From assembly GCA_028753945.1 (NCBI GenBank), contig JAPNXP010000003.1:3472001-3536000 (forward strand): a stretch of DNA of 64,000 bases, read 5' to 3'. The stretch comes from Hexactinellida sp. DTS-2022 (lineage: Eukaryota; Porifera; Hexactinellida). Below are positions 3,023-64,000 of this stretch, piece after piece. Position numbers and translations under genes: made by a program. Each line of letters opens with the position of its first letter. The first letter of the stretch is position 1. Below the pieces are notes generated by a model, which saw only the letters and a program-made list of their open reading frames with translations, was not told the origin of the DNA and did no database searches.

Positions 3023-3037
3023 TCTATATATTAAAAG

Positions 3038-3464: not shown

Positions 3465-3494
3465 TATTAAAAGAGGAATTGTTGTGTCAACTTG

Positions 3495-3538
3495 TGTGTG
3501 TGTGTGTGTGTGTTTGTTTGTTTGTTTGTTTGTTTGTC
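3495..3538. repeat. (TG)n-(TTTG)n microsatellite
   Basis: Simple repeat of TG followed by TTTG units; this leader recurs at the 5' side of the Helitron-like copies. A 67-residue frame through it (MCVCVCV...) is an artefact. Confidence 0.9.
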
Positions 3539-4161
3539 CAGAATTAATTGGAAAGACTACGAGTCCCAGAAAGCTGAAAATCTGTATACAGGGGTAATTT
3601 TGTACTGCGACAACGATCTATTGGTTTTTGAAGAGAAATATTCACATTTGAAGGTGACAAAATATGTTGGCCAATTAAATTCGAGGGTTTGTTAGTATGG
3701 ATTAGCAGATTTCATAAATTAGTATAAATAGATTGTGCATACAGTCGAAATCGGGGTTTTTTGCCACGGGTTTTTTTGCCTCCTTTTGTCGTGCATTTTG
3801 GGGGGCAAAAAACCCGATTTCGACTGTGATAGAAATATTTTCTGAGGCTCCAATTTGATTGATTGAAAATTAATTTATTTAACCAATCAATCATTTGTCT
3901 ATTCTATTGCCTGTTTTCTTTTAGTATTATTTTGATTCGAGCTTTCTTATAGCTTATCGTGCAACTGAAATTTATTGAGCTATTAAAACTCATTATTAAT
4001 GTGATTGCTTTGGGGAGGGAAAGGCCGCGAAGCGGCCGTTAATTGTATCGCGTAGTGCCTAACACGAGCCTAACACGATTAATTAACTCGGAACATACAA
4101 ACAAATATTTATATATATACACAAATAAAGGTTTGTGGTTTTATAGTACGTATAGATAATT

Positions 4162-4478
4162 CCACTCAAACCTCCGATATCCGGACCTTCCAGACCCGGG
4201 CACCTCCCTCAATCGGGCTCACTTATTGGTGTAAAGGCAAACTAAATATGTATTCATATAAGCAATAATGGAGTTAAATGACAAAAACAATAACAAATGC
4301 AAATTGTATTATCCACAACCCCGTTAACAACATCGTTTTTGATTTTTTAATGAATCTAGAAAATATCAATTAGACACTTTGAAATTGCACACGCACTAGC
4401 TATTGTAACTCTGAAATCCCGCAAATTCTCAGTTACGGACACCCTCCGGGGACATGCCCGGATAAGGGAGGTCGAGTG
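4162..4478. mobile_element. Tc1/mariner- or pogo-like MITE
   Basis: Imperfect inverted ends: CACTCAAACCTCCGATATCC on the left, and on the right the complement of CACTCGACCTCCCTTATCC. The left flank reads TAATT and the right flank TAATTA, consistent with a TA-centred target. No coding sequence. Confidence 0.55.
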
Positions 4479-4897
4479 TAATTAGGAAGCCGTAGGCTAG
4501 AAATAAGCGCGTCACCAGTCCTAATGTATTGACAAGTTTACAAATCATTCAATTTATTCAGAGCATCGCATAGCAGTTTTATTGAAATTCGACTACATAT
4601 ACCAGTGTAAAATCGGTAATGGGGATTTTCAAGCAAAATCGGGATGGTTGGACAATGTATATAAATTCTATTTTCAGGACAAACTAACACCATATCAATA
4701 GCCAATCGAACTTTATAGCGAAAAATAGAAAAAACATTTCGGCCTTCTATGTTTTTGGCTTTCTCAGTGGCATACCAGCCCCTGTATTAAGTGGGTCACA
4801 ATAATAAAGTGTCACTATGTTAAGATGCCTATATTGAATTTGAATATTTTCGATACTTATAGTAAATGGGAATCTAACTATAGCTCGTAGCTGCATC

Positions 4898-5111
4898 CAG
4901 GCTTTCATCCAGGAAATATTTACCGCGCTCCTAGATTTAGTTTGAGCTCGTTCAGTTTTCATTTTGTACGCCTAGATTAGTCATCTTGTATTAAGTCTAT
5001 GGGAGCAGCTCTCGAAAATGTAGGCCTAGACTCGATTTTTGTACGCCTAGATTAAAATCCTGCCAAATAACGCTCCTTTAGGCGCGCCCAGCACGCCTGG
5101 ATAACACCCTG
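4898..5111. mobile_element. hAT MITE, 'CAGGGTTTCATCC' family, copy 1
   Basis: Starts CAGGCTTTCATCCAGG and ends CCTGGATAACACCCTG. An exact 8-bp duplication GCTGCATC flanks it (4890-4897 and 5112-5119). The interior contains GCGCGCC-type segments and the 'TCTATGGGAGCA...CTCTCGA' core shared with the copies at 10078, 18855 and 22490. Confidence 0.88.
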
Positions 5112-5439
5112 GCTGCATCTAACGGACAGGTACTTAGAGTGTCCTATCCCAATATTTTTGGGGGGCTTTATCACACAATGATAAGATGAAAAGAACTGAA
5201 GCTGCTGAAAAGCAATCGAGTATGGCTGATAGGATGACGATTTGAAACATAATATAACTTTCAACAAACAAATAATGGTGCAAAAACAGTCGTCAACAGG
5301 AATAAGACATTATGACAAAATATCGGTCAAGTATTACAAACTACAAAGTTTAATTCCTTAGCCATAAGGCCGAATGGAATTCCGAAAAATACAAACATGT
5401 TTCTATTTTCTCTCATATTCGTATTAACGAGGTTATACA

Positions 5440-5850
5440 GTTAGCAAATTAATGAAAATTCAGAATGAACCTAGAAGTTAGCTTCCAACAGGTATTGTAG
5501 GTAAACAAGTATGCTAATTTCGAAGTTCGCATTTATAAATTTCTAATATGAATAATTATTGTTGTTGTTTACAAAAAGAGGTAACAAATTAATTAAATTC
5601 AAAATCAACCTAGAAATTGGGTTTCAACTGGTATTATAGGTAAACAAATAATCTAAACACGAATTTCGCATTCATAAATTTACAATATGAATATTTATTG
5701 TTGATGTTGTTTACCAAAAAAGGTACACAATTTAACGAAAATTCAAAATCAACATAGAAATTAGCTTTCAAGGGATATTATTGGTAACAAGTTTGACCTA
5801 TGGTGGAAAGGGTGAGGTGTAAGGCCGCATAGCGGTCGTTAACTTGAGGT
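5440..5850 (+). repeat. Helitron-like element, partial copy B (tandem monomers and 3' part)
   Basis: Three degenerate copies of a ~140-bp monomer (AATTCA...CCTAGAAGTTAGC...GGTAAACAAGTATG...TTGTTGTTGTTTAC) are followed by the AAGGCCGCATAGCGGTCGTT hairpin. The same monomers occur at 9130-9770 and 27057-27450. The 5' end is absent. Confidence 0.6.
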
Positions 5851-5934
5851 GCAATCCATACCGTACCGATCCGTATTCGTATTAACGAGGTTCTACTGTA
5901 TATACTTTGTTCGAGGTCAAAATAAAATCTATAG

Positions 5935-6402
5935 TAAAACCTGTCATCCACGAATATGGACCTTTATGGAATCAATTAATCATATAATAGAGGGCACTGA
6001 TAATGACATTGGTAGATTACGCGAGGGAAGGTAAATCAGTAGGCCAAGGAAGAAGAAGGACTTAAAACACGATAAAGATAGGATGAAATGTAAACAGAAA
6101 CTCAAAGATGGAGTATACAATCCATTAGAATTTCTGAAAGCTATGAGCTATACAATAGGCAATGTTGTGAGTACTCAAGATGCATTCTCAAGTAGTTCTG
6201 AAGATGAAGGTGAGAGCGATGATGCTCCAACAATGGGGAACCAATGTATTGTATGTCTTGGACCACGACTGGAAACTTGGGTATTTATGCCATGCAGGCA
6301 TGCAAATTGTTGCTCTGATTGCTGCTAAGAGATAGAGAATCTAGCACAAACTTGCCCTGTGTGCCGCTCCACCATTGATTCAATTTTCAAGATATACAAT
6401 TA
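5935..6402 (+). pseudogene. MULE transposase C-terminus with IAP-type RING (MULE-1 remnant)
   Basis: Short frames reproduce the C-terminus of the whole MULE at 24 kb: HPRIWTFMESINHIIEG matches HPNIWKFLSSLENIMTD, and YNPLEFLKAMSYTIG matches YTPIQYLKCISSTIG. A serine/acidic linker follows, then a RING finger: CIVC, CRHANCC, C, a stop, then CPVCR. The RING spacing and the KIYN ending look like the IAP/MDM2 class of E3 ligases. At least two in-frame stops show that it is dead. The 31-bp array to its right is the matching transposon end. Confidence 0.75.
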
Positions 6403-6587: not shown

Positions 6588-7319
6588 ATCAGTACATTCT
6601 CGGACAAGTGACAACATACTGAAAAACGATTCGGACAAGTGACAACATACTGAAAAACGATTCGGACAAGTGACAGTATACTGAAAAACGATTCGGACAA
6701 GTGACAACATACTGAAAAACGATTCGGACAAGTGACAGCATACTGAAAAACGATTCGGACAAGTGACAACATACTGAAAAACGATTCGGACAAGTGACAA
6801 CATACTGAAAAACTATTCGGACAAGTGACAACATACTGAAAAACGATTCGGACAAGTGACAACATGCTAAAAAACGATTCGGACAAGTGACAACCAGGGG
6901 CGTCGGAAGCGTGAAAGCGGGGAGGGGGCAATCAGAATTTAGAGGGGGCACAGACAAAAAGCTAATTCTTAGTAGTATAAAACCCAACGTGATTTTAGGT
7001 CTTTTTTGATAGTTTCACTTCGGATAAGAGCAGAGTATCATGACATTTGAACTCATGTGTATCATTGGTGTTGTTATTTCATCTATTTGGACTGGGAAAG
7101 GGGGCACAGGTGAGGGGGGCACCGAGATTTTTGAGGGGGGCACGTGCCCCCCCTTCTGACGCCCCTGGTGACAACATACTGAAAAACGATTCGGACAAGT
7201 GACAACATGCTAAAAAACGATTCGGACAAGTGACAACATACTGAAAAACTATTCGGACAAGTGAAGGTCCCACATTTTCGGACAAACGACAACATCAAAT
7301 TCGGACAAATGCAGGCACC
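6588..7319. repeat. 31-bp tandem array forming the right terminus of MULE-1
   Basis: About ten near-identical 31-bp units (complement TGTCACTTGTCCGAATCGTT then TTTCAGTATGT) lie at 6590-6894. About three more lie after a nested MITE (7168-7262), followed by degenerate units to about 7319. Read inward from 7319, the end starts GGTGCCTGCATTTGTCCGAA, close to the left end of the MULE-3 remnant at 44070 (GGGGGAGTTGCATTTGTCAG). This identifies the array as a transposon terminus, not a host satellite. Minus-strand frames of 80-132 residues through it are repeat artefacts. Confidence 0.75.
6895..7167. mobile_element. hAT MITE inside the 31-bp array
   Basis: Ends CAGGGGCGTCGGAAG and CTTCTGACGCCCCTG are inverted repeats. 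The exact 8-bp duplication GTGACAAC (6887-6894 and 7168-7175) is part of the array unit, so the insertion split a pre-existing array. Confidence 0.92.
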
Positions 7320-20960: not shown

Positions 20961-21567
20961 GTACTACAAACGATGTACTATACGTGTATACTGAATGTTA
21001 ACAGCCCCACCTTAGCATTAGCCAGATCTTTGTCAAAATTTCTTCCAAGAGAAGAAAACGTTTGAGATCTCGAAAAGGTCTTTCACGCGGGTCAGTAGCA
21101 GTCAAAAGGTGCATAAATGTTTCAGAGCGAAATCTTATCTTGATATTTGAAAATTATCTGATAAACGTTGAAATTTAAATTTAACATCCCAAAACTAACA
21201 TATAGAATATTTGCCTACTCAGTACGTATAAGGCCCATATTCTTATTATATTTTATACTAATTAATTAACACGTTATTAATTAGAATAATCAATTATGTC
21301 TTTGCAATTAAACTTGTCAACAATATTTACATTTTCACCCTATCTGTAACAAATACTTACTAGGAACCCGCACACGCGGTCAAAGCCACAACACAATTTT
21401 GTTAAACACTTAAGTAGTCTAGATATCCACTATTTATAGTATCTTATGTGTGGCAATGTCTCGCTAGTTTTGCATCTATTCTGAACCCTTGTGCAAGTTA
21501 GCTCGTCCAATATATTTCAATAAATATTATTATTCTGAAGAATATTATTTTACTTTTTCCATTATAG
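20961..21567. other. Non-coding sequence upstream of the START exon, ending in a 3' splice site
   Basis: No coding block recognised. The last bases (TTTTACTTTTTCCATTATAG, 21548-21567) form a good polypyrimidine tract and AG acceptor. Confidence 0.5.
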
Positions 21568-22250
21568 GTGATAACTTGAGATCTTACAGAACCTTAGCAA
21601 CAGAGCTGCATATATCAGTTCAGACTGAATTAAGGGAAGCACTGAGAGTCAATATTGATTTTAACAAAATTGTACTTGATTATGGTGTTTCCAAAATTGG
21701 AAAATGGCAATTCATCGGATTTGAGAAAGAAATAGTCATATTGAGGAAAGAGTTTAGTAACAAAATTCATGGCTTTCTAGGAATGGGTGTTATCAATTTT
21801 CCTCCAGGAAGAGTTTTTGAAGTTTTGCGAAATCCACAAAATCGATTTGTTTATGATAATATGTTAAAAAATATTAATGTTCTTCAAGAAGTGGATAAAG
21901 AAATGTATATATTACAAATGCAACATGAACATAATCAATGTTTTGTAAAGCAATCAAGGGAATCATGTTTACTTGTTTCAGAAAGCTCTGATGGTAACAA
22001 ATATACAATTGTAAGCAAGTCTGTTGAGCATGATCTTTGTCCTTTGAGCGAAACTGTAAAAAGACTTGAGGTTTACAAGGGTGGTTGGATTATTGAGCCT
22101 CGGGAGAAAAATGGCAAACATTTTTCCAAGATCTATTATCTAATTGTTATTGAATTACAAGATGTCCCTCAATTTGTGATAAATCATGTTGGAAAGAGAC
22201 AGCCTCTTAGTATAGCATATCTTCGTGACTTTATGAATCAAACAAGTTAG
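21489..22250 (+). CDS. START lipid-binding domain protein (probable terminal exon from 21568)
   Basis: The open frame of 253 codons carries a START domain over residues about 75-250. Recognisable blocks are GMGVINFPPGRVFEVLRNP, YDNMLKNINVLQEVD, QCFVKQSRESCLLVSES, VKRLEVYKGGWIIEP and the C-terminal helix PLSIAYLRDFMNQ. START domains hold a single lipid or sterol in a helix-grip fold and serve in lipid transfer or sensing. A splice acceptor just before 21568 suggests that the first 26 codons are intron and that the true exon begins GTGATAAC in phase 1. Upstream exons were not found in the window; a Helitron fragment lies where the intron would be. The exact STARD subfamily cannot be told. A stop at 22248-22250 is followed by an AATAAA signal at 22446. 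Confidence 0.8.
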   Translation: MCKLARPIYFNKYYYSEEYYFTFSIIGDNLRSYRTLATELHISVQTELREALRVNIDFNKIVLDYGVSKIGKWQFIGFEKEIVILRKEFSNKIHGFLGMGVINFPPGRVFEVLRNPQNRFVYDNMLKNINVLQEVDKEMYILQMQHEHNQCFVKQSRESCLLVSESSDGNKYTIVSKSVEHDLCPLSETVKRLEVYKGGWIIEPREKNGKHFSKIYYLIVIELQDVPQFVINHVGKRQPLSIAYLRDFMNQTS

Positions 22251-23865: not shown

Positions 23866-24165
23866 GGGAACGCGGAATTTGACCTAAAATAAATTCGGAA
23901 TTCGACCTAAAACTGATGTAGGAAAATGACCTAAATTCGAAGTAGGAATTTGACCTAAAGAAATTTGTGAATTCGAAAAATGACCTAAATTCGAAGTAGG
24001 AATTTGACCTAAAGAAATTTGGGATGTAGGAAAATGACCTAAATTCGAAGTAGGAATTTGACCTAAAGAAATTTGGGATGTAGGAAAATAAACTAAATTT
24101 GAAGTAGGAATTTGACCTAAAGAAATTTGGGATGTAGGAAAATAAACTAAATTGGGAGTATGTTG
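23866..24165. repeat. Left terminal tandem array of the MULE
   Basis: About five to six copies of a ~50-bp compound unit, inverted relative to the right array at 26262-26478. Minus-strand frames of 98-117 residues through it are artefacts. Confidence 0.88.
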
Positions 24166-24393
24166 CGGGCATGCCACCAATGTGATTAGTTATCACTTCG
24201 CCGACAATAATAATTGGCTTCTTATAGACTTGTATTACTTGTTACAAGCGTTATTATTTCATTGAATGATCTTGTTAGTCCTATCTTGTTTATGATTAAT
24301 ACATTTAGTGTTATAATTATTAATATGCAAGTACAAATGCTGATAAATTTGGAATTTATGATAACACTGGAATTTTACTATCTTATCATAACA

Positions 24394-25923
24394 ATGGAAT
24401 TCTCAATCGTTGAGGGAAAGAAACTAAACTCGCTCAATTATATGTCTGATGGGTATCGATATAATAAGTATAACGAATCAAATGGAACGATATATCTTAG
24501 ATGTACTCTCGCGAGAAGTCATGGATGCAGTGCTACAGCAAAAATACTGGATACTGGAAATCTCTTGATAATTACAAAAACTCATAATCATTCTCAAACT
24601 GAACATCAAACAGATACCATCATATTAGCTAACAGAATAAAACGAGTAGCTGAGACATCTACCGAAAATTTAAGAGAGATTTTCAACACGGAGTGTCGTT
24701 CTTCTTCAGGAGCATCTTCTCTGTCATTTAAGTCAATTGAGAGTACCTTGTCAAAGAGGCGTAGGATAGAGTTGCCAAAATTACCATCATCTGCGGAAGA
24801 ATTCTCTGAACTCGTGATACAATCACCATTCTCTAGTAATCACAGATTGACAATTAGAGAAGGTAATGAAACAGCTGTATTATTTGCTAGTGATCAAATG
24901 ATAACTAAACTAAAAGAAGCAGAAACTGTTCACTTTGACGCTACTTTTAAAGTTGTCCCGCGTATATTCTATCAATTGCTAACGGTATTTATTCGGTATA
25001 AAGGCCATGTAATCCCAGCATTGCATATATTAATGAGCGAAAAAAATGAAGAACTTTATACGGCAGTATTATCAGCAGTTCATAGTTTTATTCCAGAATT
25101 TAATCCATCTATAGCGATGTGTGATTTTGAAAAGGCTTCGCGCAATGCCTTCAAGACTATATTTCCCTATACAACCATCGTTGGTTGTTGGTTTCATTTT
25201 ACACAAGCTGTATACCACAAAGTTAAAGAATTAGGCCTTTGCAAACTGTACAAAGTCAACAAAGAATTCAAAAAATGGATCCATCAATTGATGTCGCTGC
25301 CATTTTTAACAGAAGAAGACATTCGTCCGATATATTTAGCTATCAATCTATCAACAGAATTAAATGATCATGAGTTAAAGATTGTTGGTTCGTTTAAAAA
25401 GTATTTTTTGAAAACTTGGATAGACGGAAGTGAAAGTTTATCAGTATTCTATTACGAATTTAATACAAACAATGGAGCTGAGTCATACCACAAAAATCTG
25501 AAGTCATCAATCAAAACGAATCATCCTAACATTTGGAAATTTCTCTCATCATTAGAAAATATAATGACTGATAATGATTTAGAAATAAGAAGGCTGGATA
25601 ATGGGTTAACTATTACAAGGACACCAAAACCGAAAGTTCGCTTGAATAATCAACGGCGAACGGAATACAAAACAAAATATCTTAATGGCATGTACACACC
25701 AATCCAGTATCTAAAGTGCATTTCTTCAACCATAGGCATTGGAAACAAGAGGGTATTAAGTACACCTGAAGTTGCGTCTCAAGAAGAAATAGACTCATCA
25801 AGCGATGAATTCGAGTCGTATTCCAGATGCTACGTATGTCTCCTTCAAAGGAAAGATAATTTTTACTTTTGCATGAAGGTTTTGCACATGCGGGCTTTTG
25901 CGAAAAATGCGCGAACGAAATAA
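24394..25923 (+). CDS. MULE transposase: FLYWCH finger, DDE core, C-terminal RING (frameshifted at the end)
   Basis: The frame is open from 24214, but MEFSIVEGKK at 24394 is the likelier start because the FLYWCH finger begins there; the 60 residues before are hydrophobic and intron- or terminus-like. Numbered from 24214: FLYWCH at about 62-127 (SDGYRYNKYN, Cys and HNH). MULE core at about 238-430 with Asp242 (HFDATFK), Asp304 (MCDFEKA), Cys325/His328 (GCWFH) and Glu423 (NNGAESYHKN), so the catalytic triad is intact. A serine/acidic linker leads to a RING starting CYVC (539-542). A one-base shift at about 25870-25885 throws off the rest of the RING, which continues in the next frame to a stop at about 25992. 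Cut-and-paste transposase; catalysis looks preserved. Confidence 0.9.
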   Translation: MEFSIVEGKKLNSLNYMSDGYRYNKYNESNGTIYLRCTLARSHGCSATAKILDTGNLLIITKTHNHSQTEHQTDTIILANRIKRVAETSTENLREIFNTECRSSSGASSLSFKSIESTLSKRRRIELPKLPSSAEEFSELVIQSPFSSNHRLTIREGNETAVLFASDQMITKLKEAETVHFDATFKVVPRIFYQLLTVFIRYKGHVIPALHILMSEKNEELYTAVLSAVHSFIPEFNPSIAMCDFEKASRNAFKTIFPYTTIVGCWFHFTQAVYHKVKELGLCKLYKVNKEFKKWIHQLMSLPFLTEEDIRPIYLAINLSTELNDHELKIVGSFKKYFLKTWIDGSESLSVFYYEFNTNNGAESYHKNLKSSIKTNHPNIWKFLSSLENIMTDNDLEIRRLDNGLTITRTPKPKVRLNNQRRTEYKTKYLNGMYTPIQYLKCISSTIGIGNKRVLSTPEVASQEEIDSSSDEFESYSRCYVCLLQRKDNFYFCMKVLHMRAFAKNARTK

Positions 25924-25992
25924 ATCGCCTAAATCAAGACTGCCCAATTTGTCGGGGAAAAATCAATGGCATAGTAAAGATTTTTCAGTAAG
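25876..25992 (+). pseudogene. RING finger remainder of the MULE transposase, in the next frame
   Basis: Reads GFAHAGFCEKCANEIN, RLNQDCPICRGK and INGIVKIFQ before TAA. With CYVC upstream this completes a C3HC4 RING whose Cys/His order and KIFQ ending resemble the RING of IAP proteins (ubiquitin E3 ligases). The break is a single-base shift, so it is recent or a sequencing error. Confidence 0.75.
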
Positions 25993-26261
25993 ATAAGCTG
26001 TCTCTAATTTATTATTTATTTACTTTTCTTTTTACAACTTCTCAATTATTATTATTATTTGTTTCTTTTTCTTATTAAAACCTCTCATTTGTTATTATTG
26101 GTTTGCTTTATTAGGGAAAATAATATTCAGTATTGTAAATAATCACACTCAATGACACTATTTCTTAATCATTATGGCATTGAATATGTAATACAAGAAA
26201 TAATGACTACAAGTACAAAATCAATACAAACATCACAGTCAGAATTCGGTCACCCCTAACA

Positions 26262-26478
26262 AAATGAATTTTAGGTCATTTTCCTACATCCCAAATTTCT
26301 TTAGGTCAAATTCCTACTTCGAATTTAGGTCATTTTCCTACATCCCAAATTTCTTTAGGTCAAATTCCTACTTCGAATTTAGGTCATTTTCCGAATTCAC
26401 AAATTTCTTTAGGTCAAATTCTTACTTCGTACATTTAGATCAAATTCCTGCATTTTTTAGGTCAAATTCCTGCGTCCC
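26262..26478. repeat. Right terminal tandem array of the MULE
   Basis: About four compound units, complement of the left array, with shorter degenerate units at the very end. The 89-residue frame here is an artefact. Confidence 0.88.
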
Positions 26479-44069: not shown

Positions 44070-44300
44070 GGGGGAGTTGCATTTGTCAGAATTTTGAGGT
44101 TGTCATTTGTCAGAATTATCCTAACTGTCACTGTCAGAATGGTTTTAAGACTGCTGTCATTTGTCAGAATGGTTTTTAAGACTGCAGTCATTTGTCAGAA
44201 TGGTTTTTAAAGACTGCTGTCACTTGTCAGAATGGTTTTAAGACTGCTGTCACTTATCAGAATGATTTTTAAGACTGCTGTCACTTGTCAGAATCCTAAC
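44070..44300. repeat. 31-bp tandem array, left terminus of MULE-3
   Basis: Starts GGGGGAGTTGCATTTGTCAG and continues as about six units of TGTCACTTGTCAGAATGGTT(T)TTAAGACTGC. Homologous to the complement of the array at 6588-7319. Confidence 0.75.
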
Positions 44301-52891: not shown

Positions 52892-54400
52892 TTAAAATGT
52901 GCGTAATGTGAATGTATGGAGAAATTCAGGTACGTTTTCGGAAACCTTCGATAACAAAGCGAAATGAATCGAGTTCGTCACACCGGAGACATGTTCAAAT
53001 TGTATCTGAATAGAGGTTATATCCTGTGAATATAAATAATTTTCAAAGTTTAGTATAAGATAGTTGGCAAATTCTTGAGTTGATTTAATAGACGAGAACG
53101 CCCAAGAATGTATTAACGAAATACTGGTTAGATCTAGAAGCTGAATACGAGATTGTGCGATGTTTATCACAAAAAATATCTTGTTTTTCTTCCACACACC
53201 TTCATACTTTATTGATGGAGAATAATTAACTAATCTATAAAGTGAGGATTTGAATGCATTCAACCACATCATCAAATAATCCCATGTTTCAGCAGAGAAG
53301 ATATGCTGAGTACCTAATTCTGAACGTAGAAGAAAGGAGTTTGACCTTAAAGAGCTTTTATCTTTAAGAAGATGATATGATGTTGTCTGTAAATTGTAAC
53401 TAACTTCGAATTGTTCCCAAGAATGCCCGTCAGATGGAGGCTTTGAATATATACGCACATCATATTCGGTGCACACGAGAAACTTCCTAATCCAAAATGA
53501 ATAATTTGCAGAGGATATCAATCTCTCAAAAAGCCACCCCATTATCAAAATAGACTCACTATTTGATTTCAAATTATGAATAAATGAGAGCGATTCTAGT
53601 TGTATAGCTTTTTTTATGGCAACTACCCACGTTGATATTTCAGCATTTTCCTGATCACCATAATGGATAGTAGCATTCAGGTTACCGTCGGAGCTACAAA
53701 TATTAAATCCATTTATTAACCTGATAGCAGTACCAGATTTGTATAAGGTGACACTTGCATTTAAGAGAGGGATCCTCGAGTAAGGTACCCATTCTGATAG
53801 TTTCAAAGTTCGAGATTCAATATTTTTATCCGGAGCAAATATTAAATTGTTAATTTCAGTTCTTATAAGTTTGAATAATATTACACCATATAAACTATTC
53901 AATAAATCCGCTACAATGTTATGCTTCGCCAGAGAAACGTCAATCCCGTTAATAGAATCAATCAAATCATCTGGCTGTAACCCATAATAATCTGCAGGTG
54001 AATTTATGAATACCCGACTAACCCTTATGGGTTGTTCCCCAACTATCGTCACTCCTAATCTCTCATGAGGCTTTATTTCAACTTTTAAGTCAAAAGTCTG
54101 ATAATTAATCAATTTGTTATGCTCATAAAATTCGTAATTCTTATGATATAAAAGGAGAAACTCCGCTTTGAGCAGCAACTTAACTCTCTCTTTAACCCCC
54201 TTTTCAGGTAAGAAAATACCTATTGTTTTGGGTTGATTAAAATTCGATACAACTGCAAAAAGATATTCATGTGGACTTAAAATTGTAGTGGAAGAGGAAA
54301 CCATTCTATTTAATAGTGGTATAAATATCAAGGGTAGGAATTCCAATTTTGGGATTGGCATGATGTTTTTGATCCCGAGATCCCGGGTCTGATAATACAT
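52892..54400 (-). CDS. Gamma-syntrophin-like scaffold protein (PDZ, PH, syntrophin-unique)
   Basis: 502 codons, uninterrupted. A split PH half is likely before the PDZ domain (about 102-180; binding loop ERLGVTI at 113-119, then GLQPDDLIDSINGIDV). SRIPLL (about 208) matches the SRIPLL-like start of the interdomain PH part of gamma-syntrophins. A second PH lies at about 286-392 (MGWLFERL, RKFLVC, SWEQFEVSYNLQTTSYHLLKD, W-LNAF), then a syntrophin-unique-like end (about 395-490). Human gamma-1 syntrophin has about 517 residues, so length and order are complete. Alignment of the N-terminus suggests that the start may be Met33 (54304) rather than 54400. Syntrophins attach channels and signalling proteins to dystrophin at the membrane. 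The reading frame is intronless here. It lies 554 bp downstream of the giant repeat gene, same strand. Confidence 0.85.
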   Translation of the reverse strand: MYYQTRDLGIKNIMPIPKLEFLPLIFIPLLNRMVSSSTTILSPHEYLFAVVSNFNQPKTIGIFLPEKGVKERVKLLLKAEFLLLYHKNYEFYEHNKLINYQTFDLKVEIKPHERLGVTIVGEQPIRVSRVFINSPADYYGLQPDDLIDSINGIDVSLAKHNIVADLLNSLYGVILFKLIRTEINNLIFAPDKNIESRTLKLSEWVPYSRIPLLNASVTLYKSGTAIRLINGFNICSSDGNLNATIHYGDQENAEISTWVVAIKKAIQLESLSFIHNLKSNSESILIMGWLFERLISSANYSFWIRKFLVCTEYDVRIYSKPPSDGHSWEQFEVSYNLQTTSYHLLKDKSSLRSNSFLLRSELGTQHIFSAETWDYLMMWLNAFKSSLYRLVNYSPSIKYEGVWKKNKIFFVINIAQSRIQLLDLTSISLIHSWAFSSIKSTQEFANYLILNFENYLYSQDITSIQIQFEHVSGVTNSIHFALLSKVSENVPEFLHTFTLRTF

Positions 54401-54954: not shown

Positions 54955-57900
54955 TTAGTTACCCGTTAACGTGTAACTATTATTAGAAGGTGAATTAGAG
55001 TTTTGTAGAGTAAAACCTGTAACATTAAAGGTAGAATTGTTGACAGATTCACTAAATCTGAAAGAAATTTGGCCTTCATCTAGATCCAAGTCAAAAGATT
55101 GAAGTAAAGGTGGAGTTGTATCAGCTACATAAGAATTCGCTCGTTGTCCATTTCCATCCTGAATCGGTACAATCGAATTTCCATTCATGTCATGAATAAA
55201 AAGAGACGAAATCAAAATGTAAGTGTCATTAACATTTGTAGCCAATGATGGCGAAGATTTTATACAATTGATATCACTCAAAGTAAGATTAATCATAACA
55301 ACGTCGTTATCGATCAAGTACACACCTGCGCCTGTTAAAGTAACTATAGAATCTGATAATGAGAGAAAATTAGAATGTTGAAGTGTCAAGTATCGGGGGT
55401 TAAGAGTAGAAACATTTACGGTCTCAGTGAAGGTAAATATAATAAAAGCCTCGTTCATGCTGATGGAAAAAGCAATTAATTCTGGGGATAAAGAATCTGG
55501 AACATATTCGGCTACTCTGACTGTTTCATTAAAAGGAATCGATTCCAAGGGGTTACCACTCATATCAAATATTGCAGGTTGAGACAAGATTTCGAGAAAA
55601 GTGGTTGATGAAGCTGTACCAAGATACTTCAGGCGTTTAATTTGATTTAAATTTGAGATAGAAAGTATTATACTAATTTCGATCCCATTCATACTATTAG
55701 TGCTATCGCCACCTAATATAATAGACTGTGTCACGTTTGAAATAGGACGGGTGCCATGAAGCTTAAATGCATCAAAACGAATTGTTCTCGCATTCATTGC
55801 TTCATTGAAAATAAGTTGAAGTAACCCAAGGTTTAAATCCAAATTGAAAGAAGTCAGAAGAGGATTCACCATATCCAGAATACAAGAACGAACTTGGATA
55901 CCTGTAACTGGAACAACCATGTTCCCAAAATTGTCAGAAATTGATTCCGGTTTTAAAGATATAAAAGTGGTGTTGATACAATCATAAAAGGTAGCTAAAT
56001 CGGGTAAGATTTTGATGATATCCAAGTCTTTAGCCGTAAGCTTAATAATTAATATAGGGTCATCAGAGCTTATTACTTCACCAAATTGGAGCGTCAAATT
56101 AACAGCATCGGTGTTGTTGCTCGAAAGGAGTGTTGTGTGCTGAATTGAAAAGCTACTAGAATTTATAGTTTCAGAAAATAACATAGTCAGAAGACCAAAA
56201 TTGAGGTCTAAGTCAAAAGCTATCAAATATGGTTGTATAGTATCCAGAGATAATGAGTCAACTTGTAATGCGTTGAACGAAGAAATTTCTTGCAATGGGT
56301 TAATATTCCTATCTAGGACTGCGCCCATTTTAACACTAAGAAATGCATTGGATGATTTAGTGTAGAGGTTCGTCATGCGTTTGAGATCATTTAAGTCTGC
56401 ATCTGAAAAAGTTATAATGATGTAGGGGGAATGGATACTAGAAACAGTAGAAAAAGGGAAAATTGTATGCGTTTGATCAACAGTCATCGAAGTATTTTGT
56501 AGAGTAAATAATGTAACATTAACTGTAGTAAAATCGACAGTTTCAGAAAAAGAAAGAAATAATTTTCCAAGTGAAAGATCTACTTGAAATGAAAGTAAAG
56601 TGGGACTAGTCATATCAGGAGTAAATGTAGAAACTTGCTTACTACTCAAACCATTTAATAGAGGTACTAATGGACGAGAGTTATGATCAAAAATTGTAAA
56701 AGGTTGTACAGTTATCCAAGTTGTTTGTTTATTCCTTGCAATATTCAATGCTTTAATATAATTCAGATCTGGTTCACTGATGGAAATAATAAGTGAATTG
56801 TCAATAGTTAAGTTCAGTATTATACCTGAAGTAAGTGCATATTTCTGTTCGGGTAGAGGTGAGTTAGAAGCAGACTGGATAGTGAGGCCAGTTGCATTAA
56901 AAGAATCTGTATCAACTGTTTCATTAAATTTAAGAGATATAAACCCAGTATTCATATCTAAATCGAACGAAAGTATAAACGGATCATTTGTATCATAAAT
57001 AAACGCATCAGCTCGCCGAAAATGAACAGATTGGATAGGATTCTGATTCATGTCTTGTATAAATGAAGCTAGTAGACTAATATAGGAAGAATTTGCACTT
57101 GTGGCTAATGGCTCTATGTTTTTAATAGTATTTAAGTCTACATCAGTTAAATGAACTTCAATGAAGGTGTTGTTATCAGTGGTATCAAGTGCTCCACCAG
57201 AGAGAGTATAATTAATCGACTTGTAAGGTGAAACACTCAAAGTAATTAACTGCACATTAGCAGAAATTGAAGCCACGATTTCATTGAAATTAAGACGTAA
57301 TCTTCCAAGGTTCATATCTAAAACAAATGAGAGTAAAAGTGGAGGTACAGTGTCTTCATAAAACTGCAGTGCAGTTTTCAATATGAATTCAATGGGGTTA
57401 CCAGCAGTGTCAGTCACAGCACCTGCCATTAATTCGAGGAGTGTAGACGATCTAGAAACTGCAATTGAAAAATCTCTTTTTATTAAGTTTAGATCAAAAG
57501 GAGATAGAGAAATGTCGATTATTGTCGAGTCAAATTGAGGAACATTGCCATTTGTCAGCTGTACAAAACTTCCATCAACACTCTGAGACCGGATATAAAA
57601 TTGGGTAAGCATAACCGCAGCGTATGCTATAGCTTCATCAAAAGTGAGAGACATTATATCAGAAGTTAGGTTGAAATTGAAAGAAATTAGCTGAGGTGGG
57701 GTCTCATCAGCAGTGAATATATTCACTAGTTTAACTGGTTCTTGTAATACATATAGTCCTCGCATGTCACGTACTAGTATTGCAGTGTGAATAAGATAAG
57801 TGCTGAACTTGTCAGTAGCTAAGCTTCTGAGAGATTTGATTGCATTGAGATCATCGAAATGGATAGTGATTGTAATAATAGTACTGTCGTTTAGGGATGT

Positions 57901-60900
57901 AAAGCTACGATTCGTCAATGTATACGCCTGATGTGGGAAGGAATCATTAGATTGCAATTGAATTTGGGTCACATCAAACGAAGTTGAATTAATAGTTTCT
58001 GAAAAAGTAAGTAATATCAGACCTGAGTCTAAATCAAAATCAAAACTCTCTAATTTTGGATGAGTTGAATCCAGTGTAAAGTTCCTTACCAGAAGAGTGG
58101 ATCCGTTCTGGTTATTAACATAATTACCATACATATCCATAATAGTAGAACTTCCCAAATAAATATACGTTGTATTAACGGAAACGGCGAGGCTTGTTAG
58201 ACGTTTGATTTCATTTAAGTCGAAATTATCTAAGGAGAAGTAGATAGAAAGAGCATCTTCATCAGTAATAATACTAGAGGCAGAAAGGATAATGCTTTGA
58301 GTTGAAGAAAGAATATGAGGACTATTATGTAATTCAATATATGTCACATCAAATGAACTGAGCTTTACTATTTCGTTAAAAATTAGTAATATTGTACTAT
58401 TGGCTGTTGAAAGATCGATATCAAAAGATAATAACAAAGGTTTTGTAATATCTGGAATGTAAGTATTAACAAGCATAGCTTCATAGTCATTGATTTCTAT
58501 GGATTCTAATCCCACCGTATCTCTGACGTGACTCGAGTCAAAACTTAAGAAAGTAGTGGATGCACTAGTAACAAGATTTTCTTGAGCTAGCTTTTGAATG
58601 TTATTTAAATCATAGAAAGAAATCGATAAGTTAACAATATACCAATTTCTATTATTAATTGTATCTATTATACCATCAGTCAGTATATATGCAATAGTAG
58701 AAGTAAGAGAACCCTTTGATATCTGAAGGACTAATTGATCAATTCGTATAGTATTTATATCGACAGTTTCAGAGTATGTAAGAATCATATTGGCAGTATT
58801 AAGGTCCAAAGTATAACTTGACAAATGGGGAGCAGTATTATCACTTGTATAAGCATCAGATGTAAGGTTGAGAGGATTTGTATTAGATATCGTAACGAGA
58901 GGATTGTTATTCATATCGATAACTAAAAGTGACATACTTGACAAGTATGTGTTAGTAGAGTTAGACGCCAAATTAGGTCTGGATTGTATCTGCACAATGT
59001 CTGTAAAGTTGAGAATAATATCGATAATACGAGAGTTAAGACGAACCTGTGCTTTTTCGTTTGAGAGTGTATATAAGAGAAGAAAATCAGTTGCACCAGC
59101 GGAGGCAAGTAGAGATAATTGATTTACATTGAATGTTTTACTTCTGACAGGTTCAGAGAAGGTCAAGAAAATACCCTCAGGTGGATTCATACTCAAAGAA
59201 AACGATAACAATTCTGGTCGAGTAGTATCAGGGGTAAAGTTAAATATAGGTATTCCTTCTTCTACTATAACTGGAGGTAGAATAAAGTTTCCAGCATGGT
59301 CCCGTAGAAAGTTCTCGGTATATCTCAGATATGTGTTATTTTTTCTTGTTGCAAGTGTGTCATCTAATTTAAGAGTATTGATGTCGGTTTGAGCTAATTT
59401 GATGAAGGCAATAATTTCCCTGCAGCATGACCATTCGACTTCATCAGGATAACTTAAAACAATACCCAAAGAAGCAAATCCGATAAACATTGAAGGCTGG
59501 AGAATTAATTCGCTAATTATGAAAGTATTTCTTTGTACTTCCTCATTAAAAGTAATAGTTAGTAGATTTGAGTTAATGTCCAAATTGAAAGAGAGTATTC
59601 TAGGCCGTGTTTCATCCTTAACATAATTAGAATTATTTAAGGCTAACGCATTAGTAGTTGAAATTGAAACAAGAGAATTCATTGCAGTGTCTTTAATCGT
59701 TTCGTTTGTAATAACGATGTATGTGTTTGTGGCACTTGTAGCTAGATTATCATTATTCTTGATCAAATTGATATCTTGATAAGATAGTTGAATAACAATA
59801 CATGCATATCTTGTAGAGTCGGGGAGATTACAAAGTTCTAATAAGTATGACTGAGAACTCAGATGAATAGTGTCTGAACTAATTGTAATTTGGGACTGTA
59901 GAGATATACTTGAAACAACAATTGTATTTAAATCAATGGGCTCCGAAAACAATAGCAACATCCTTCCAATATCCATATCTAGTTGGAATGATTGAAGAAT
60001 CGGGTTAGAAGTATCAGGAATAAGCTTAGTCACTCGGAGTATTATATTATTGATTGGATTGTTGCTAAAATCTCTTAAAGCTTCGGTATTAATCCCTATG
60101 TATGTGTTGTAAATAGTTGTAGCAACTGTCAAATCAACCTTCAATGGAAAAAATACATGGATACATACATCTATTTTAACAATACTTGGAATAGTTGGAG
60201 TAACCAGAGGTTGATCACAGAGATTAGTTGGTACATCAAGTGAGTAATTTGTAGATAATAAGGGATCAGAACCAATGAAAATTTTCATCTTATCAAAAGT
60301 AGACACATCTACGGCCTCATCAAAAGTAAGTATCATATTTCCATAATTAATATCGAGATCAAATGACACTAGTTGAGGTGCTTTAGTGTCATTGATAAAT
60401 TCGCCAACTGGAATGGCATAAGTAACTGAAGTGTAAGGATTCAAACTCATATCGAATACAGCGGATTGTCCAAGAAATAGAAAAGTGGTGCTTGCATCCA
60501 GGGCAAGGGTCTTCATTGATTTAATATTATCAAGGTCATTTTGTGATATATATACTGAAACATCAGTAGAATAGTTTGATATAACCCAGCTTGATATTAA
60601 TGTGAAGTTATGTGAATATAATGAGGGTTCACTATGAAGGACAACTTCCTCAATTATAAAAGTAGAAGTATTTACAGTCTCAGAGAAGTGAATAGTGATC
60701 AGTCCAACATTCAAATCAAAGTCAAACGAATTGATTATAGGATGAGTTACGTCAGGAACAAATTCAAAAGTACTTTTGGGTGAACTAGCATTGATGGAAA
60801 TGATTGGATTACCAAATGTGTCAGAAACAAGTGAATTATTGAATGACAGGTAGGTGTTGGTAGTGGCTGTCGCAAGGCCTACAATGGATTTGATTAAATT

Positions 60901-63900
60901 AAGATCCCGAAGAGAAAACTCCAACAGAATGAAGAGATCATCTTGCAATGTTATATTACCACCAGTCAAAGAAAAATGAATAAAAGGTTCATACGACTGT
61001 GTTATGTTAGATCCATTCGATGAAGTGGATATTAAAGGAATTGAGGCACTAAGCAATACAATCTGTGTTAGATCAAAAGATTCAGATGCAACAACTTCTG
61101 AAAAAATAAGTTTAATTTTGCCGATATTTAGGTCAAGAGAGTAATTCAGTAGAAAAGGCGATATTTCGTCTATAATGAAAGTAGAAACTTGCAGAGGATT
61201 TGTTAAATAAATAGGGTTGATAAAATTCAAATTCAAGTCATGGACAGCTGTAGAATTGACTGAAATGAAGGTAGTGTTTATGGAAGTTGCGAGAGAGCGG
61301 ATACGATTTAGTGAATGCTTATCCTGAAGTGAGATTTTGACATTTAGCACTGTGCTGTCATTATTAAATGTAGATCCTTCCGTAAGTGTAAAATATTGAG
61401 ACCTGGAGTTCAAAAATGTTATGTCAAATACTCTCAGCGAAGAGGCATTGACTACTTCATCGAAAGTAAGCAAAATTAGAAGTTCGTTCATGTCTAAAGT
61501 AAATCCAGATAAGTTCGGGTTGGTTTTATCTGATGAGAAATTACGAACCTCTAGGGCTGATATGTTGTTAATAGCAATTAAACTGTTATTATGAAGATCT
61601 TTGACGGTGTCATAACCAATAGACAAATAAGAAGTGGAGTTACTCACTACTAAGTCTCCTTTAAGTTTGAGATTGTCTAAATCTTGATCAGTTAATGAAA
61701 GATAAATTATAGTTCCATTTTCAGATCTAACATGCTCTCCACCAGTTAATTGATAATAAGTACTATCAAAAAGTTGTATATTGGACTGACTAATAAAAAT
61801 TATTCCAGTGGGATGAAAAGTATCAACATTAACGGTATCAGAGAAACTCAACGAAACAATTCCAGTGTTTAAATCAAGATCAAATAGTAATAAAATTGGT
61901 GGAATATCATCTGGGGTATATTGTGAAACAAGAATAGCGTTTCCATCAGTGATTGGAACTACATCAATATACATGGTATCATCAAAAATAGAAGCTCTGA
62001 AGGTAATATACGTTGTATAGGGACTATCAGCCACTATCGGAGTGCTCTTCAACTTAAAGAGGTCAGCATGTGAGATATCTATCCGCATCACATATCCATT
62101 AGAACTGTTGATGCGAGTTGATGAGGTGAGAGTGAAAGTAAATTCTGGAATACTTAATCTAGAATGTTGTATTGTTAAAGATGAAGGATTGAATGAATAA
62201 GCTAATATCACATCGTTAAATGATAAATGAATAGTTCCAACGTTGAGGTCTATAGAGAAAGAAATGAGAGAAGCACGTGTGTTGTCAGGCGAGAATATAC
62301 ATGCCTTCTGCTTGATAGGCAATGAAGGATTAGACTGAGTATCATATATTGCATCAGCCTGAAGTGTAAGATAAGAACCATCCTGTTTTGTAGCAAAAAA
62401 CATATTGGATTTTAGAGAAATTATGGAATCCTTCTGCAGTTGAATAGTAATTTCATGTAGCCCAAATTCCCTTGTTTCAGGACTAATTGTGCATGAATTT
62501 AGAGTCAAAAATGTACTACCATTAACAGAAAAATTTGAAAGTGTGAGTGCACTACAGTTGAGTGAATCTGGATAGATTGGTTCACTAAACGTCAGTGTAA
62601 TAATTTCTCTGTCCATATTTAAAGAATGACAAAGAAGATGAGGTTTGATTGTATCAGCAGTATAGTTTTGACTTTCCATTGTCATTGCATTAAAAAAGGG
62701 AATAGATGTGGCTGAGTTTGGAATATAAGCAGTATCTGTGAAAGAATTGCTATCTAAGGACAAATAAGTTGTATTGAATGATTTCGCAAATGATTTCGCT
62801 TTTAGAATATTTAAATTATCATTAGTCAAAGTTATAGCAACCCTCAAAGAACTTACGGAATGAATAAATTTAGATGTAATAGCATGGAAAAGAGATGTAG
62901 AATTTGATATATCTGCATTTGCTTGCAATCTAATGGCTGTAGAATTTATGGTTGGGATGTCAACAGGTTCGTTAAAAGAAAGGAGCAAGGTTCCAGTATT
63001 CATATCAAAAGCAAAGCTCGCTATATATGGATCTGTAAGGTCATGACCAAAGAATCGAACCACAAATCCACTGGAAGAATTAACAACAGGCAAGATAGGT
63101 AAACCAACCATGTCATTAAGTAATTTGTCTGTAAGTGTTAAGTAACAATTTGAACGTAAAGTACAAAGCATATGCAAAGCTTTGATTGCAATGATATCAA
63201 CATCATTTAAGAAAAGTATGAACATAGTGTCGTAAGTAGCATTAATAGTAGTTCCACCAGTAAGCACATAAGACTGTTGAATTGGTGATTCTGAAAAGTC
63301 TTGTAGTGTTATGGCAGTTGGATTGACAGAAGATACATTCACCGTCTCAGAGAATGAGAGTGTCAAATGACCTTCCATTAAATCAAAGCTTGTGAATTCA
63401 TATAATTCAGGTCGAGAAGTATCTGGAGAATAACTATCAACATGGTGCGATTTATTTTGTTCTCTGATACCTAGGATACTAAGATTAAACTGATCACGTA
63501 TTGCGTCCGAAGAGAAAGTTAGATAGCAATCAATAGAAAGTCGACAGAATTGCTTTCGCTTAATCTCATTCAGATCGAAGGAACTCAAAGATATATCCAC
63601 AATGTGTGAATCAAAGGATTGTATTGTGCTATCAAGTAGCGTGTGGTTTTGTACAGATAATGAGTAGGGATTATTTAGTAAAGTGAACTTTCCTATTGAA
63701 ATTGAACTAACATCTACAGTTTCATTAAAAACAAGAGTGAGTATACCCAAGTTCATTTCTAAATCAAACGATAACAAAATTGGTCTAATTAAATCCTGTG
63801 TGAAGTTCGAAACTTGAAGGGCGTATCTTGAGGTACGAGGAATTAATCTATTATTATTCATGTCATACGCTAAATCATCTGTATAAGTAATATACAAGTT

Positions 63901-64000
63901 ATTTTCATTTGTGGCAAGATTTTCTAGTTCTTTTATTCGATTTTTATCTGATTTTGAAATAAGAATATCGAAATATGTTTCAAAAACATCTTCTGTTACT
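54955..64000 (-). CDS. Giant tandem Ig-like (SbsA-like) repeat protein, N-terminus beyond the window
   Basis: One frame is open from the window edge to a stop at 54955-54957, just over 3010 codons; no start is needed inside the window, because the frame reads through from 64000 (EDVFETYFDILISKSDKNRI...). It contains 24 repeat starts of about 122 residues. Consensus: PDxTxPxLLSFDLDLNxG, xLxLxFSETVNxSSFNxT, xxTLQ, SYTLTGG, LSxxDLNxIKxLxxLATS, then TTYLxxxxxxxxDMxGNPL. The pattern resembles bacterial SbsA-type Ig-like domains (FSEPVD after PDTTxP); similar repeats are recalled in large proteins of sponges and unicellular relatives of animals. It is rich in N-x-S/T sites, with few cysteines, consistent with an extracellular or surface role. 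No membrane segment was seen in the visible part. The last repeat stops midway, just after SYTLTGN, where GGTAACT gives a possible splice donor. Confidence 0.85.
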   Translation of the reverse strand, partial: VTEDVFETYFDILISKSDKNRIKELENLATNENNLYITYTDDLAYDMNNNRLIPRTSRYALQVSNFTQDLIRPILLSFDLEMNLGILTLVFNETVDVSSISIGKFTLLNNPYSLSVQNHTLLDSTIQSFDSHIVDISLSSFDLNEIKRKQFCRLSIDCYLTFSSDAIRDQFNLSILGIREQNKSHHVDSYSPDTSRPELYEFTSFDLMEGHLTLSFSETVNVSSVNPTAITLQDFSESPIQQSYVLTGGTTINATYDTMFILFLNDVDIIAIKALHMLCTLRSNCYLTLTDKLLNDMVGLPILPVVNSSSGFVVRFFGHDLTDPYIASFAFDMNTGTLLLSFNEPVDIPTINSTAIRLQANADISNSTSLFHAITSKFIHSVSSLRVAITLTNDNLNILKAKSFAKSFNTTYLSLDSNSFTDTAYIPNSATSIPFFNAMTMESQNYTADTIKPHLLCHSLNMDREIITLTFSEPIYPDSLNCSALTLSNFSVNGSTFLTLNSCTISPETREFGLHEITIQLQKDSIISLKSNMFFATKQDGSYLTLQADAIYDTQSNPSLPIKQKACIFSPDNTRASLISFSIDLNVGTIHLSFNDVILAYSFNPSSLTIQHSRLSIPEFTFTLTSSTRINSSNGYVMRIDISHADLFKLKSTPIVADSPYTTYITFRASIFDDTMYIDVVPITDGNAILVSQYTPDDIPPILLLFDLDLNTGIVSLSFSDTVNVDTFHPTGIIFISQSNIQLFDSTYYQLTGGEHVRSENGTIIYLSLTDQDLDNLKLKGDLVVSNSTSYLSIGYDTVKDLHNNSLIAINNISALEVRNFSSDKTNPNLSGFTLDMNELLILLTFDEVVNASSLRVFDITFLNSRSQYFTLTEGSTFNNDSTVLNVKISLQDKHSLNRIRSLATSINTTFISVNSTAVHDLNLNFINPIYLTNPLQVSTFIIDEISPFLLNYSLDLNIGKIKLIFSEVVASESFDLTQIVLLSASIPLISTSSNGSNITQSYEPFIHFSLTGGNITLQDDLFILLEFSLRDLNLIKSIVGLATATTNTYLSFNNSLVSDTFGNPIISINASSPKSTFEFVPDVTHPIINSFDFDLNVGLITIHFSETVNTSTFIIEEVVLHSEPSLYSHNFTLISSWVISNYSTDVSVYISQNDLDNIKSMKTLALDASTTFLFLGQSAVFDMSLNPYTSVTYAIPVGEFINDTKAPQLVSFDLDINYGNMILTFDEAVDVSTFDKMKIFIGSDPLLSTNYSLDVPTNLCDQPLVTPTIPSIVKIDVCIHVFFPLKVDLTVATTIYNTYIGINTEALRDFSNNPINNIILRVTKLIPDTSNPILQSFQLDMDIGRMLLLFSEPIDLNTIVVSSISLQSQITISSDTIHLSSQSYLLELCNLPDSTRYACIVIQLSYQDINLIKNNDNLATSATNTYIVITNETIKDTAMNSLVSISTTNALALNNSNYVKDETRPRILSFNLDINSNLLTITFNEEVQRNTFIISELILQPSMFIGFASLGIVLSYPDEVEWSCCREIIAFIKLAQTDINTLKLDDTLATRKNNTYLRYTENFLRDHAGNFILPPVIVEEGIPIFNFTPDTTRPELLSFSLSMNPPEGIFLTFSEPVRSKTFNVNQLSLLASAGATDFLLLYTLSNEKAQVRLNSRIIDIILNFTDIVQIQSRPNLASNSTNTYLSSMSLLVIDMNNNPLVTISNTNPLNLTSDAYTSDNTAPHLSSYTLDLNTANMILTYSETVDINTIRIDQLVLQISKGSLTSTIAYILTDGIIDTINNRNWYIVNLSISFYDLNNIQKLAQENLVTSASTTFLSFDSSHVRDTVGLESIEINDYEAMLVNTYIPDITKPLLLSFDIDLSTANSTILLIFNEIVKLSSFDVTYIELHNSPHILSSTQSIILSASSIITDEDALSIYFSLDNFDLNEIKRLTSLAVSVNTTYIYLGSSTIMDMYGNYVNNQNGSTLLVRNFTLDSTHPKLESFDFDLDSGLILLTFSETINSTSFDVTQIQLQSNDSFPHQAYTLTNRSFTSLNDSTIITITIHFDDLNAIKSLRSLATDKFSTYLIHTAILVRDMRGLYVLQEPVKLVNIFTADETPPQLISFNFNLTSDIMSLTFDEAIAYAAVMLTQFYIRSQSVDGSFVQLTNGNVPQFDSTIIDISLSPFDLNLIKRDFSIAVSRSSTLLELMAGAVTDTAGNPIEFILKTALQFYEDTVPPLLLSFVLDMNLGRLRLNFNEIVASISANVQLITLSVSPYKSINYTLSGGALDTTDNNTFIEVHLTDVDLNTIKNIEPLATSANSSYISLLASFIQDMNQNPIQSVHFRRADAFIYDTNDPFILSFDLDMNTGFISLKFNETVDTDSFNATGLTIQSASNSPLPEQKYALTSGIILNLTIDNSLIISISEPDLNYIKALNIARNKQTTWITVQPFTIFDHNSRPLVPLLNGLSSKQVSTFTPDMTSPTLLSFQVDLSLGKLFLSFSETVDFTTVNVTLFTLQNTSMTVDQTHTIFPFSTVSSIHSPYIIITFSDADLNDLKRMTNLYTKSSNAFLSVKMGAVLDRNINPLQEISSFNALQVDSLSLDTIQPYLIAFDLDLNFGLLTMLFSETINSSSFSIQHTTLLSSNNTDAVNLTLQFGEVISSDDPILIIKLTAKDLDIIKILPDLATFYDCINTTFISLKPESISDNFGNMVVPVTGIQVRSCILDMVNPLLTSFNLDLNLGLLQLIFNEAMNARTIRFDAFKLHGTRPISNVTQSIILGGDSTNSMNGIEISIILSISNLNQIKRLKYLGTASSTTFLEILSQPAIFDMSGNPLESIPFNETVRVAEYVPDSLSPELIAFSISMNEAFIIFTFTETVNVSTLNPRYLTLQHSNFLSLSDSIVTLTGAGVYLIDNDVVMINLTLSDINCIKSSPSLATNVNDTYILISSLFIHDMNGNSIVPIQDGNGQRANSYVADTTPPLLQSFDLDLDEGQISFRFSESVNNSTFNVTGFTLQNSNSPSNNSYTLTGN

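Follow-up and report, generated by a model that had tools for sequence, protein, structure and literature searches.

Among the described giant proteins, titin resembles the protein reported here in architecture. Human titin comprises 38,138 residues encoded by 363 exons, of which the largest has 17,106 bp (PMC12198301). It is composed of immunoglobulin (Ig) and fibronectin type III (FnIII) domains arranged in super-repeats of 7 and 11 domains, and nebulin carries super-repeats of seven repeats (PMC3859903). In size, the closest candidates come from glass sponges. The largest protein of Aphrocallistes vastus, Avas.s016.g412.i1, has 49,014 residues and a mass of 5.34 MDa and is encoded by one 147-kb exon (PMC10282587); its main text uses none of the words Ig-like, immunoglobulin or adhesion. 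For Oopsacas minuta, "an aberrant protein of around 48,000 amino acids" was removed from the predictions by the authors (PMC10280926). These two were the only giant sponge proteins of such size among the matches listed for the open-licence articles of PubMed Central, preprints excluded. Here, a stretch of 64,000 nucleotides from the glass sponge Hexactinellida sp. DTS-2022 (contig JAPNXP010000003.1, in the following C12; C12:3472001-3536000, called the window) is described, which contains the 3' end of a gene for a predicted protein of this size. The genome assembly comprises 112.4 Mb in 18 contigs. Beyond the window the region C12:3520001-3700000 was included, which is identical to the window where both overlap and contains 0 N.

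The frame runs on the minus strand and is open at the window edge, comprising 3,014 codons from position 63999 down to 54955 followed by TAA. A sequence-only reading of the window had described it as an unbroken frame of more than 9 kb that is under coding constraint and belongs to a giant animal gene. This description is borne out in all three parts, although the size was underestimated, as the window displays the tail of a frame of 49,073 codons (147,219 bases; C12:3526958-3674176), which contains neither a stop nor an N. The other five frames of the same DNA contain 1,674 to 6,060 stops each, and at this base composition a stop-free frame of this length would arise by chance with a probability of ~10^-1338. 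The G+C content at the three codon positions is 41, 37 and 27%. The calculated mass of the product is 5.39 MDa, and a model starting at the first methionine results in 48,911 residues. Besides the true size, the sequence-only reading lacked the strand, the super-repeats, two more loci on C4 and C18 and the prior mentions in glass sponges.

A profile seeded on 80 units and searched against the giant frame detected 395 tandem units, all with an expectation value (E) below 1e-3, of which 390 span at least 100 profile positions. They cover 96.4% of the residues, spaced 124 apart at the median, and leave gaps of at most 76 residues uncovered. The frame holds ~395 Ig-like domains in series and no other recognisable domain. 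The window itself contains 24 units (372-395, of which the last is incomplete) and a portion of unit 371; the at least 24 repeats counted from the window, and their core consensus, were therefore read correctly, but represent only 6% of the array. Apart from the terminal piece of 54 residues, the unit lengths range from 111 to 141 residues, and since no unit exceeds 141 residues, the frame contains no in-frame intron of appreciable size. The mean pairwise identity of the units is 26% (maximum 50%), and adjacent units are no more alike than random pairs (0.259 at lag 1 vs 0.258). Nevertheless, single positions are highly conserved over the 394 aligned units, namely P3 (92%), F21 (95%), E23 (85%, with Asp in 13%) and D72 (85%), while D100 is kept in 98% of 391 units and D123 in 100% of 245 units aligned at this position. 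This pattern suggests purifying selection on the fold rather than decay. From their conservation, E23, D72, D100 and D123 are considered as a candidate interdomain calcium site.

The fold of the unit was predicted with AlphaFold2. One unit, modelled from 105 aligned units, reached a predicted local distance difference test score (pLDDT) of 95.4 and a predicted template modelling score (pTM) of 0.87, and displays an Ig-like fold. Three consecutive units, modelled from 80 three-unit rows, gave a pLDDT of 95.8 and a pTM of 0.89, and this model suggests that adjacent units are packed in a defined way. In a Foldseek search of the single unit against the PDB, entries of the bacterial S-layer protein SbsC ranked first, second and fourth (2ra1, 4uic and 4uj6), with template modelling (TM) scores of 0.51-0.57 and an identity of 11-13%. 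Here, 2ra1 (E 3.1e-4, TM 0.55) was the only match at E <= 0.001, followed by 4uic (E 1.4e-3, TM 0.57), galactose oxidase at rank 3 (TM 0.38) and 4uj6 at rank 4 (E 2.2e-3). For the three-unit model, 217 fold matches were obtained at E <= 0.001, with TM scores of 0.13-0.27 among the 50 listed. The first of these by E (1.1e-9) is the Chlamydomonas flagella membrane glycoprotein 1B (FMG-1B; 9gos), a surface glycoprotein of 3,878 residues, which however superposes poorly (TM 0.24, 11% identity) and is closely followed by antibodies and Ig chains. Dscam, GhpA, FdeC, SbsC, titin segments and many antibody, T-cell-receptor and other Ig chains are listed as well. Since the TM scores over three domains are low, these matches point to an Ig-like character only. 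The unit is thus best modelled as an Ig-like beta-sandwich whose nearest known structure is that of SbsC, in line with the bacterial-type sandwich proposed from the window.

The more specific proposal of an SbsA/Big_5 domain did not stand. The Big_5 profile (PF13205) had no match at E <= 0.001 genome-wide, while 5 of 14 control genomes were positive; it matched 7 of the 105 units weakly (best E 0.017) and the sequence P0001 not at all. Likewise, nothing significant was obtained with Pfam for P0001 and the 105 units, with NCBIfam for P0001, or with PDB sequences against P0001 and against the 105-unit profile (best E 0.092), and PADLOC gave no match for one unit. A bacterial or viral origin found no support either: searches that reach only fairly close relatives detected none of the consensus unit among phages, plasmids, viral contigs and bacterial or archaeal genome contigs, so that a distant bacterial origin may still apply. 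The sponge aggregation factor contains Calx-beta and Wreath domains; neither was present in P0001 or the 105 units scanned.

Above the level of the single unit, the array is organised in super-repeats, which were derived from corrected pairwise similarity. The zone limits were set by eye, and units 1 and 67-69 belong to neither of the first two zones. Zone I (units 2-66) has a period of 5 units with raised similarity at lags 5 to 60, and zone II (units ~70-377) has a period of 23 units, whose multiples from 23 to 276 are in register. The z values of the best lag are 19.9 for zone I and 18.3 for zone II (lag 23), compared with at most 9.0 and 4.3 (on average 6.3 and 2.9) when the unit order was permuted 300 times. 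No super-repeat was found in zone III (units 378-394; z 1.9 vs a permutation maximum of 4.1). A unit most resembles the units of its own phase, i.e., its position within the super-repeat, in 56 of 60 cases for units 1-60 (12 expected by chance) and in 148 of 315 cases for units 70-384 (13.7 expected). The 13 blocks of 23 units in zone II share a mean identity of 28.6%, ~29% if adjacent, compared with 25.5% at one out-of-register shift (7 units); the zone I blocks share 35%. Since the identity of the zone II blocks is low and nearly uniform, the underlying duplications look old.

What appears to be the new part of the finding is a higher-order pattern of marker modules. Cysteines are scarce in the giant frame (226 in 49,073 residues) and concentrated at two alignment columns: C83 is present in 68 and C89 in 69 units, both together in 66 where 11.9 would be expected (Fisher p 1e-68). 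In zone I these pairs occupy a single phase (13/13), and in zone II they occupy phases 4, 5, 15 and 16 (14/14, 14/14, 11/13 and 13/13), with one pair elsewhere. An alignment-free text search for C-x(4-8)-C returned 67 clusters with nearly the same rhythm. In zone I, the cysteine unit carries a further cysteine pair in columns 55 and 58 (11/13 and 12/13). Three units past the cysteine unit, E23 is replaced by Asp in 13/13, 14/14 and 12/13 cases in the three phases concerned; 53 units in C12 carry Asp23 in all. Defined as a cysteine-pair unit with Asp23 in the unit at +3, a module consists of a cysteine-pair unit or a doublet of them, then two ordinary units and finally one Glu23->Asp unit. The complete module is present at 39 of 40 expected sites and nowhere else, with 13 modules in zone I, 26 complete ones at the 27 sites of zone II and none in zone III. 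The sole incomplete site, unit 131, has kept its cysteine pair and lacks Asp23. Modules follow each other at a spacing of 5 units (twelve times) and then alternately of 12, 11, 12 and 11 units up to unit 373. Over the 26 intervals of zone II, with the site of unit 131 counted, no unit was gained or lost.

The retention of sequence along zone II is very uneven. The excess similarity of the ten module phases is 0.048 on average, in contrast to 0.014 for the other thirteen. Phases 10, 11 and 13 lie at chance level or close to it, being reached 87, 1,377 and 122 times in 2,000 label shuffles, and phases 0, 21 and 22 are borderline (39, 28 and 40 times).

The unit family was detected on C4, C12 and C18 only, among the candidates scored in the genome searches (best 24 of 86 and 150 of 651), and the counts are lower bounds. 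On C4, a frame of 11,202 codons holds 89 units; a short intron apparently separates it from an upstream exon that also consists of units. Its super-repeat comprises 18/36 units (z 6.7 and 10.2; 5.6 at 54), and no strong offset of unit colinearity with C12 was found (best z 3.7). Eleven units of C4 carry a cysteine pair, with doublets at units 5-6, 23-24, 41-42 and 59-60. Asp23 is present only in units 9, 27, 45 and 63 of the 89, exactly 3 past each doublet. This position had been predicted from C12 beforehand, so the rule was met in an array that was not used to derive it. The C18 locus (C18:6067572-6111470; L029, L030 and others) consists of several frames of the unit family and ends in three TIG domains (E 6.4e-27). 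Following these, a Calx-beta-like stretch can be seen by eye, without a Pfam hit.

Comparison with C4 also bears on the end of the C12 gene. The DNA after the two stops is weakly alike, and for this reason the TAA is probably the true end of the giant gene, although this evidence is weak. With a first scoring scheme, the post-stop similarity was matched by 53, 76 and 17 of 500 shuffles, which is not significant; with a second scheme, 23, 31 and 4 (local) and 2, 8 and 2 (global) of 500 shuffles did so, which is suggestive, and 0 of 1,000 random window stretches were as good as the 3' flanks. Outside the frame, neither the 26 kb upstream nor the 55 kb downstream yielded further units; the best stretch (E 0.34) is not unit-like. 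At the very end of the frame, inside a unit, lies the splice-donor-like sequence GGTAACTAAG (window 54955-54980), so that a further spliced exon is conceivable.

Taken together, the explanation that is slightly favoured is an exported, rod-like scaffold of ~395 domains, which carries docking modules at counted spacings and is derived from one sponge gene. The array, as one 147 kb exon, would give rise to a ~5.4 MDa chain of Ig-like domains. Since the model predicts a fixed packing of adjacent domains, this chain would form a long, fairly stiff rod, exported as a matrix or surface scaffold. Within it, the cysteine pairs may form disulphides and the modules may serve as docking sites for a repeating partner, while the spacer units would set the distance, as the super-repeats of titin and nebulin do in muscle. 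Between the modules the units have mostly lost their phase identity while their number is retained, which would be due to selection on spacing. With ~4 nm per domain, which is typical, the intervals would measure ~20 nm and 45-50 nm on C12 and ~70 nm on C4, and the whole chain ~1.6 micrometres. Because retention along zone II is so uneven, the modules are likely functional.

The main rival is a passive history, in which old block duplications left the 5-, 23- and 18-unit patterns behind as a scar and the protein serves as a long tether or adhesive mat, for which neither length nor spacing matters. This is rather unlikely, but several points speak for it. Block duplication generates super-repeats, and a regular spacing could be inherited from it without selection; moreover, the 13 blocks of zone II are about equally alike, as after an old burst. 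A number of further observations also weigh against a counted scaffold. The non-module phases 1, 3, 9, 12, 14 and 20 keep similarity that was never reached in 2,000 shuffles, so that the spacer sequence is not wholly free, only much freer. Cysteine-pair unit 207 of C12 and units 31, 35 and 89 of C4 are off pattern, and zone III and the mid-unit end of the frame are left unaccounted for. The module is absent from the 61 units or pieces of C18 that were read (1 cysteine pair, 2 Asp23; ~20 kb of the array lies outside this reading), and is therefore not general to the family. What a passive history does not easily explain is that cysteine pairs persist at 52 of 54 sites of zone II and Asp23 at 26 of 27, whereas phases 10, 11 and 13 have fallen to about chance. 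Nor does it predict that three arrays with different module spacing (5, 11/12 and 18) have the same internal order, or that the unit number is constant throughout zone II.

Whether the scaffold acts outside the cell is a separate issue. For the extracellular matrix or adhesin role suggested from the window, the evidence is indirect but renders it plausible. Cysteine numbers per unit are 0 in 291, 1 in 19, 2 in 67, 3 in 3 and 4 in 14 units, i.e., even in 81 of the 103 cysteine-bearing units, and N-glycosylation sequons number 952 compared with 814 +/- 26 in 50 shuffles, a modest excess of 17%. Together with the TIG-bearing paralogue on C18, we infer from these sequence features that export is favoured. 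On the contrary, a simple hydropathy scan of the 26 kb upstream revealed no convincing signal-peptide exon, and no membrane anchor could be linked to the gene. The 19-residue hydropathy mean reaches 2.15 at most in the giant frame (7 of ~49,000 windows reach 2.0) and only up to 1.1 in the last 100 residues. In the 20 kb downstream of the C12 frame there are 10 hydrophobic open stretches, none of them linked to the gene, and 3 each were present in the stretches of downstream DNA covered for C4 and C18. The nearest one, a 57-codon open stretch on the minus strand at window ~52737 (19-residue mean 2.53, short charged tail), lies beyond the syntrophin-like open reading frame (ORF) and could be due to chance or be a membrane-anchor exon of some gene.

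That no signal-peptide exon was found upstream and no anchor could be linked to the gene would suit an intracellular, titin-like spring or scaffold in the sponge syncytium. Here, titin A168-A170 is among the three-unit fold matches (TM 0.20) and the zones resemble those of titin. This alternative is improbable, since the paired cysteines are confined to defined units, sequons are in excess, the paralogue has a TIG end followed by Calx-beta-like sequence, and Ig I-set, FnIII or kinase matches (Pfam) are absent from P0001 and the 105 units, the other units having been matched only to the in-house profile. Inside the giant frame the largest uncovered gap is too short to hold a kinase, which could lie only in exons outside it. 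Titin and the sponge array have in common the giant serial Ig-like chain and the zones of multi-domain super-repeats (here 5 and 23 units), but the latter lies in one exon and has one domain type, and no sequence relation to titin was found. The best reading of this analogy is therefore a likeness in logic, not in ancestry.

That the frame is an artefact of misassembly or chimerism, or a decayed pseudogene, is largely refuted: although the O. minuta authors judged a similar prediction aberrant and removed it (PMC10280926), which also counts against a real giant protein, the frame has 0 Ns and 0 stops, a strict module register over zones I and II and conserved units (D100 98%, F21 95%), proteins of 49,014 and ~48,000 residues were reported separately, and a mean unit identity of only 26% makes assembly collapse or expansion unlikely.

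The A. vastus protein closely matches in size and in its single 147-kb exon. Its assembly is of 80 Mb in 186 scaffolds, against 112 Mb in 18 contigs here, so the two may or may not belong to one species, and the near-equal length may or may not be an independent sign of conserved length. The O. minuta prediction is similar in size. A more far-reaching version of the counted scaffold can be put forward only tentatively. Here, the protein would be a non-muscle, extracellular counterpart of titin in animals that lack muscle, a one-exon ruler whose module intervals of 5, 11/12 and, in a sister protein, 18 domains set distances in the matrix or skeleton of glass sponges, with a length near-constant across glass sponges. 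Together with its A. vastus counterpart, it would be the longest animal protein found reported.

The coordinates of the features within the window are given in Table 1. Beside the array lies the syntrophin neighbour named in the sequence-only reading, whose PDZ domain is above the Pfam cut-off; its PH domain falls below it.

Table 1. Parts of the giant frame and its neighbour in the 64,000-nucleotide window.
Feature	Window position	Strand	Remark
3' end of giant frame, codons 46,060 to 49,073 and TAA stop	54955..63999	-	continues to C12:3674176
Zone II, last six units (372-377)	61528..63792	-	zone comprises units 70-377
Unit 372, first cysteine-pair unit of last module (phase 4 of 23)	63421..63792	-	
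Unit 373, second cysteine-pair unit of last module (phase 5 of 23)	63040..63420	-	
Unit 376, Asp unit (F-N-D-V for F-x-E), 3 units past 373 (phase 8 of 23)	61909..62283	-	
Zone III, units 378-395, without super-repeat or marker module	54958..61527	-	last unit ends after 54 residues
TAA stop	54955..54957	-	overlapped by donor-like GGTAACT
Syntrophin-like single-frame ORF, PDZ; PH below cut-off	52892..54400	-	separate gene or nested, outside array

The remainder of the window carries several other elements. A MULE-type transposon (window 23915-26453) has an uninterrupted ORF of 569 codons that encodes MULE and FLYWCH domains. A 54-bp tandem repeat forms inverted arrays on either side, with arms of up to 163 nt that are 97% complementary. 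A THAP-domain ORF (window 1137-2021, minus strand) overlaps a TNP-like RNase H transposase-type ORF (1-1188, open at the edge), and both are perhaps one THAP-type transposase gene. Furthermore, an ORF of 253 codons with a START domain (lipid transfer) is present at window 21489-22250 on the plus strand, and minisatellites with a 31-bp unit are found at window 6600-6894, 7168-7264 and 44125-44294 (up to 9.5 copies, 96% matches). At window ~47253 an open stretch on the minus strand reads GGVELNPGP, which presumably resembles the 2A-type skipping peptides of some retrotransposons and viruses.

If translated as one chain, the protein would exceed human titin by ~11,000 residues and rank among the longest proteins of all organisms; PKZILLA-1 has 45,212 residues, and predicted Omnitrophota proteins are longer still. 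It would indicate that an unrelated Ig-like domain can give rise to counted super-repeats of the titin kind, within one 147-kb exon and outside muscle. A one-sentence curiosity and a discarded prediction thereby become a testable claim, since glass-sponge genomes allow a direct comparison of module positions and of unit numbers. For glass sponges, the gene would further provide a natural case for how a 147-kb exon gets transcribed, translated, folded and exported.

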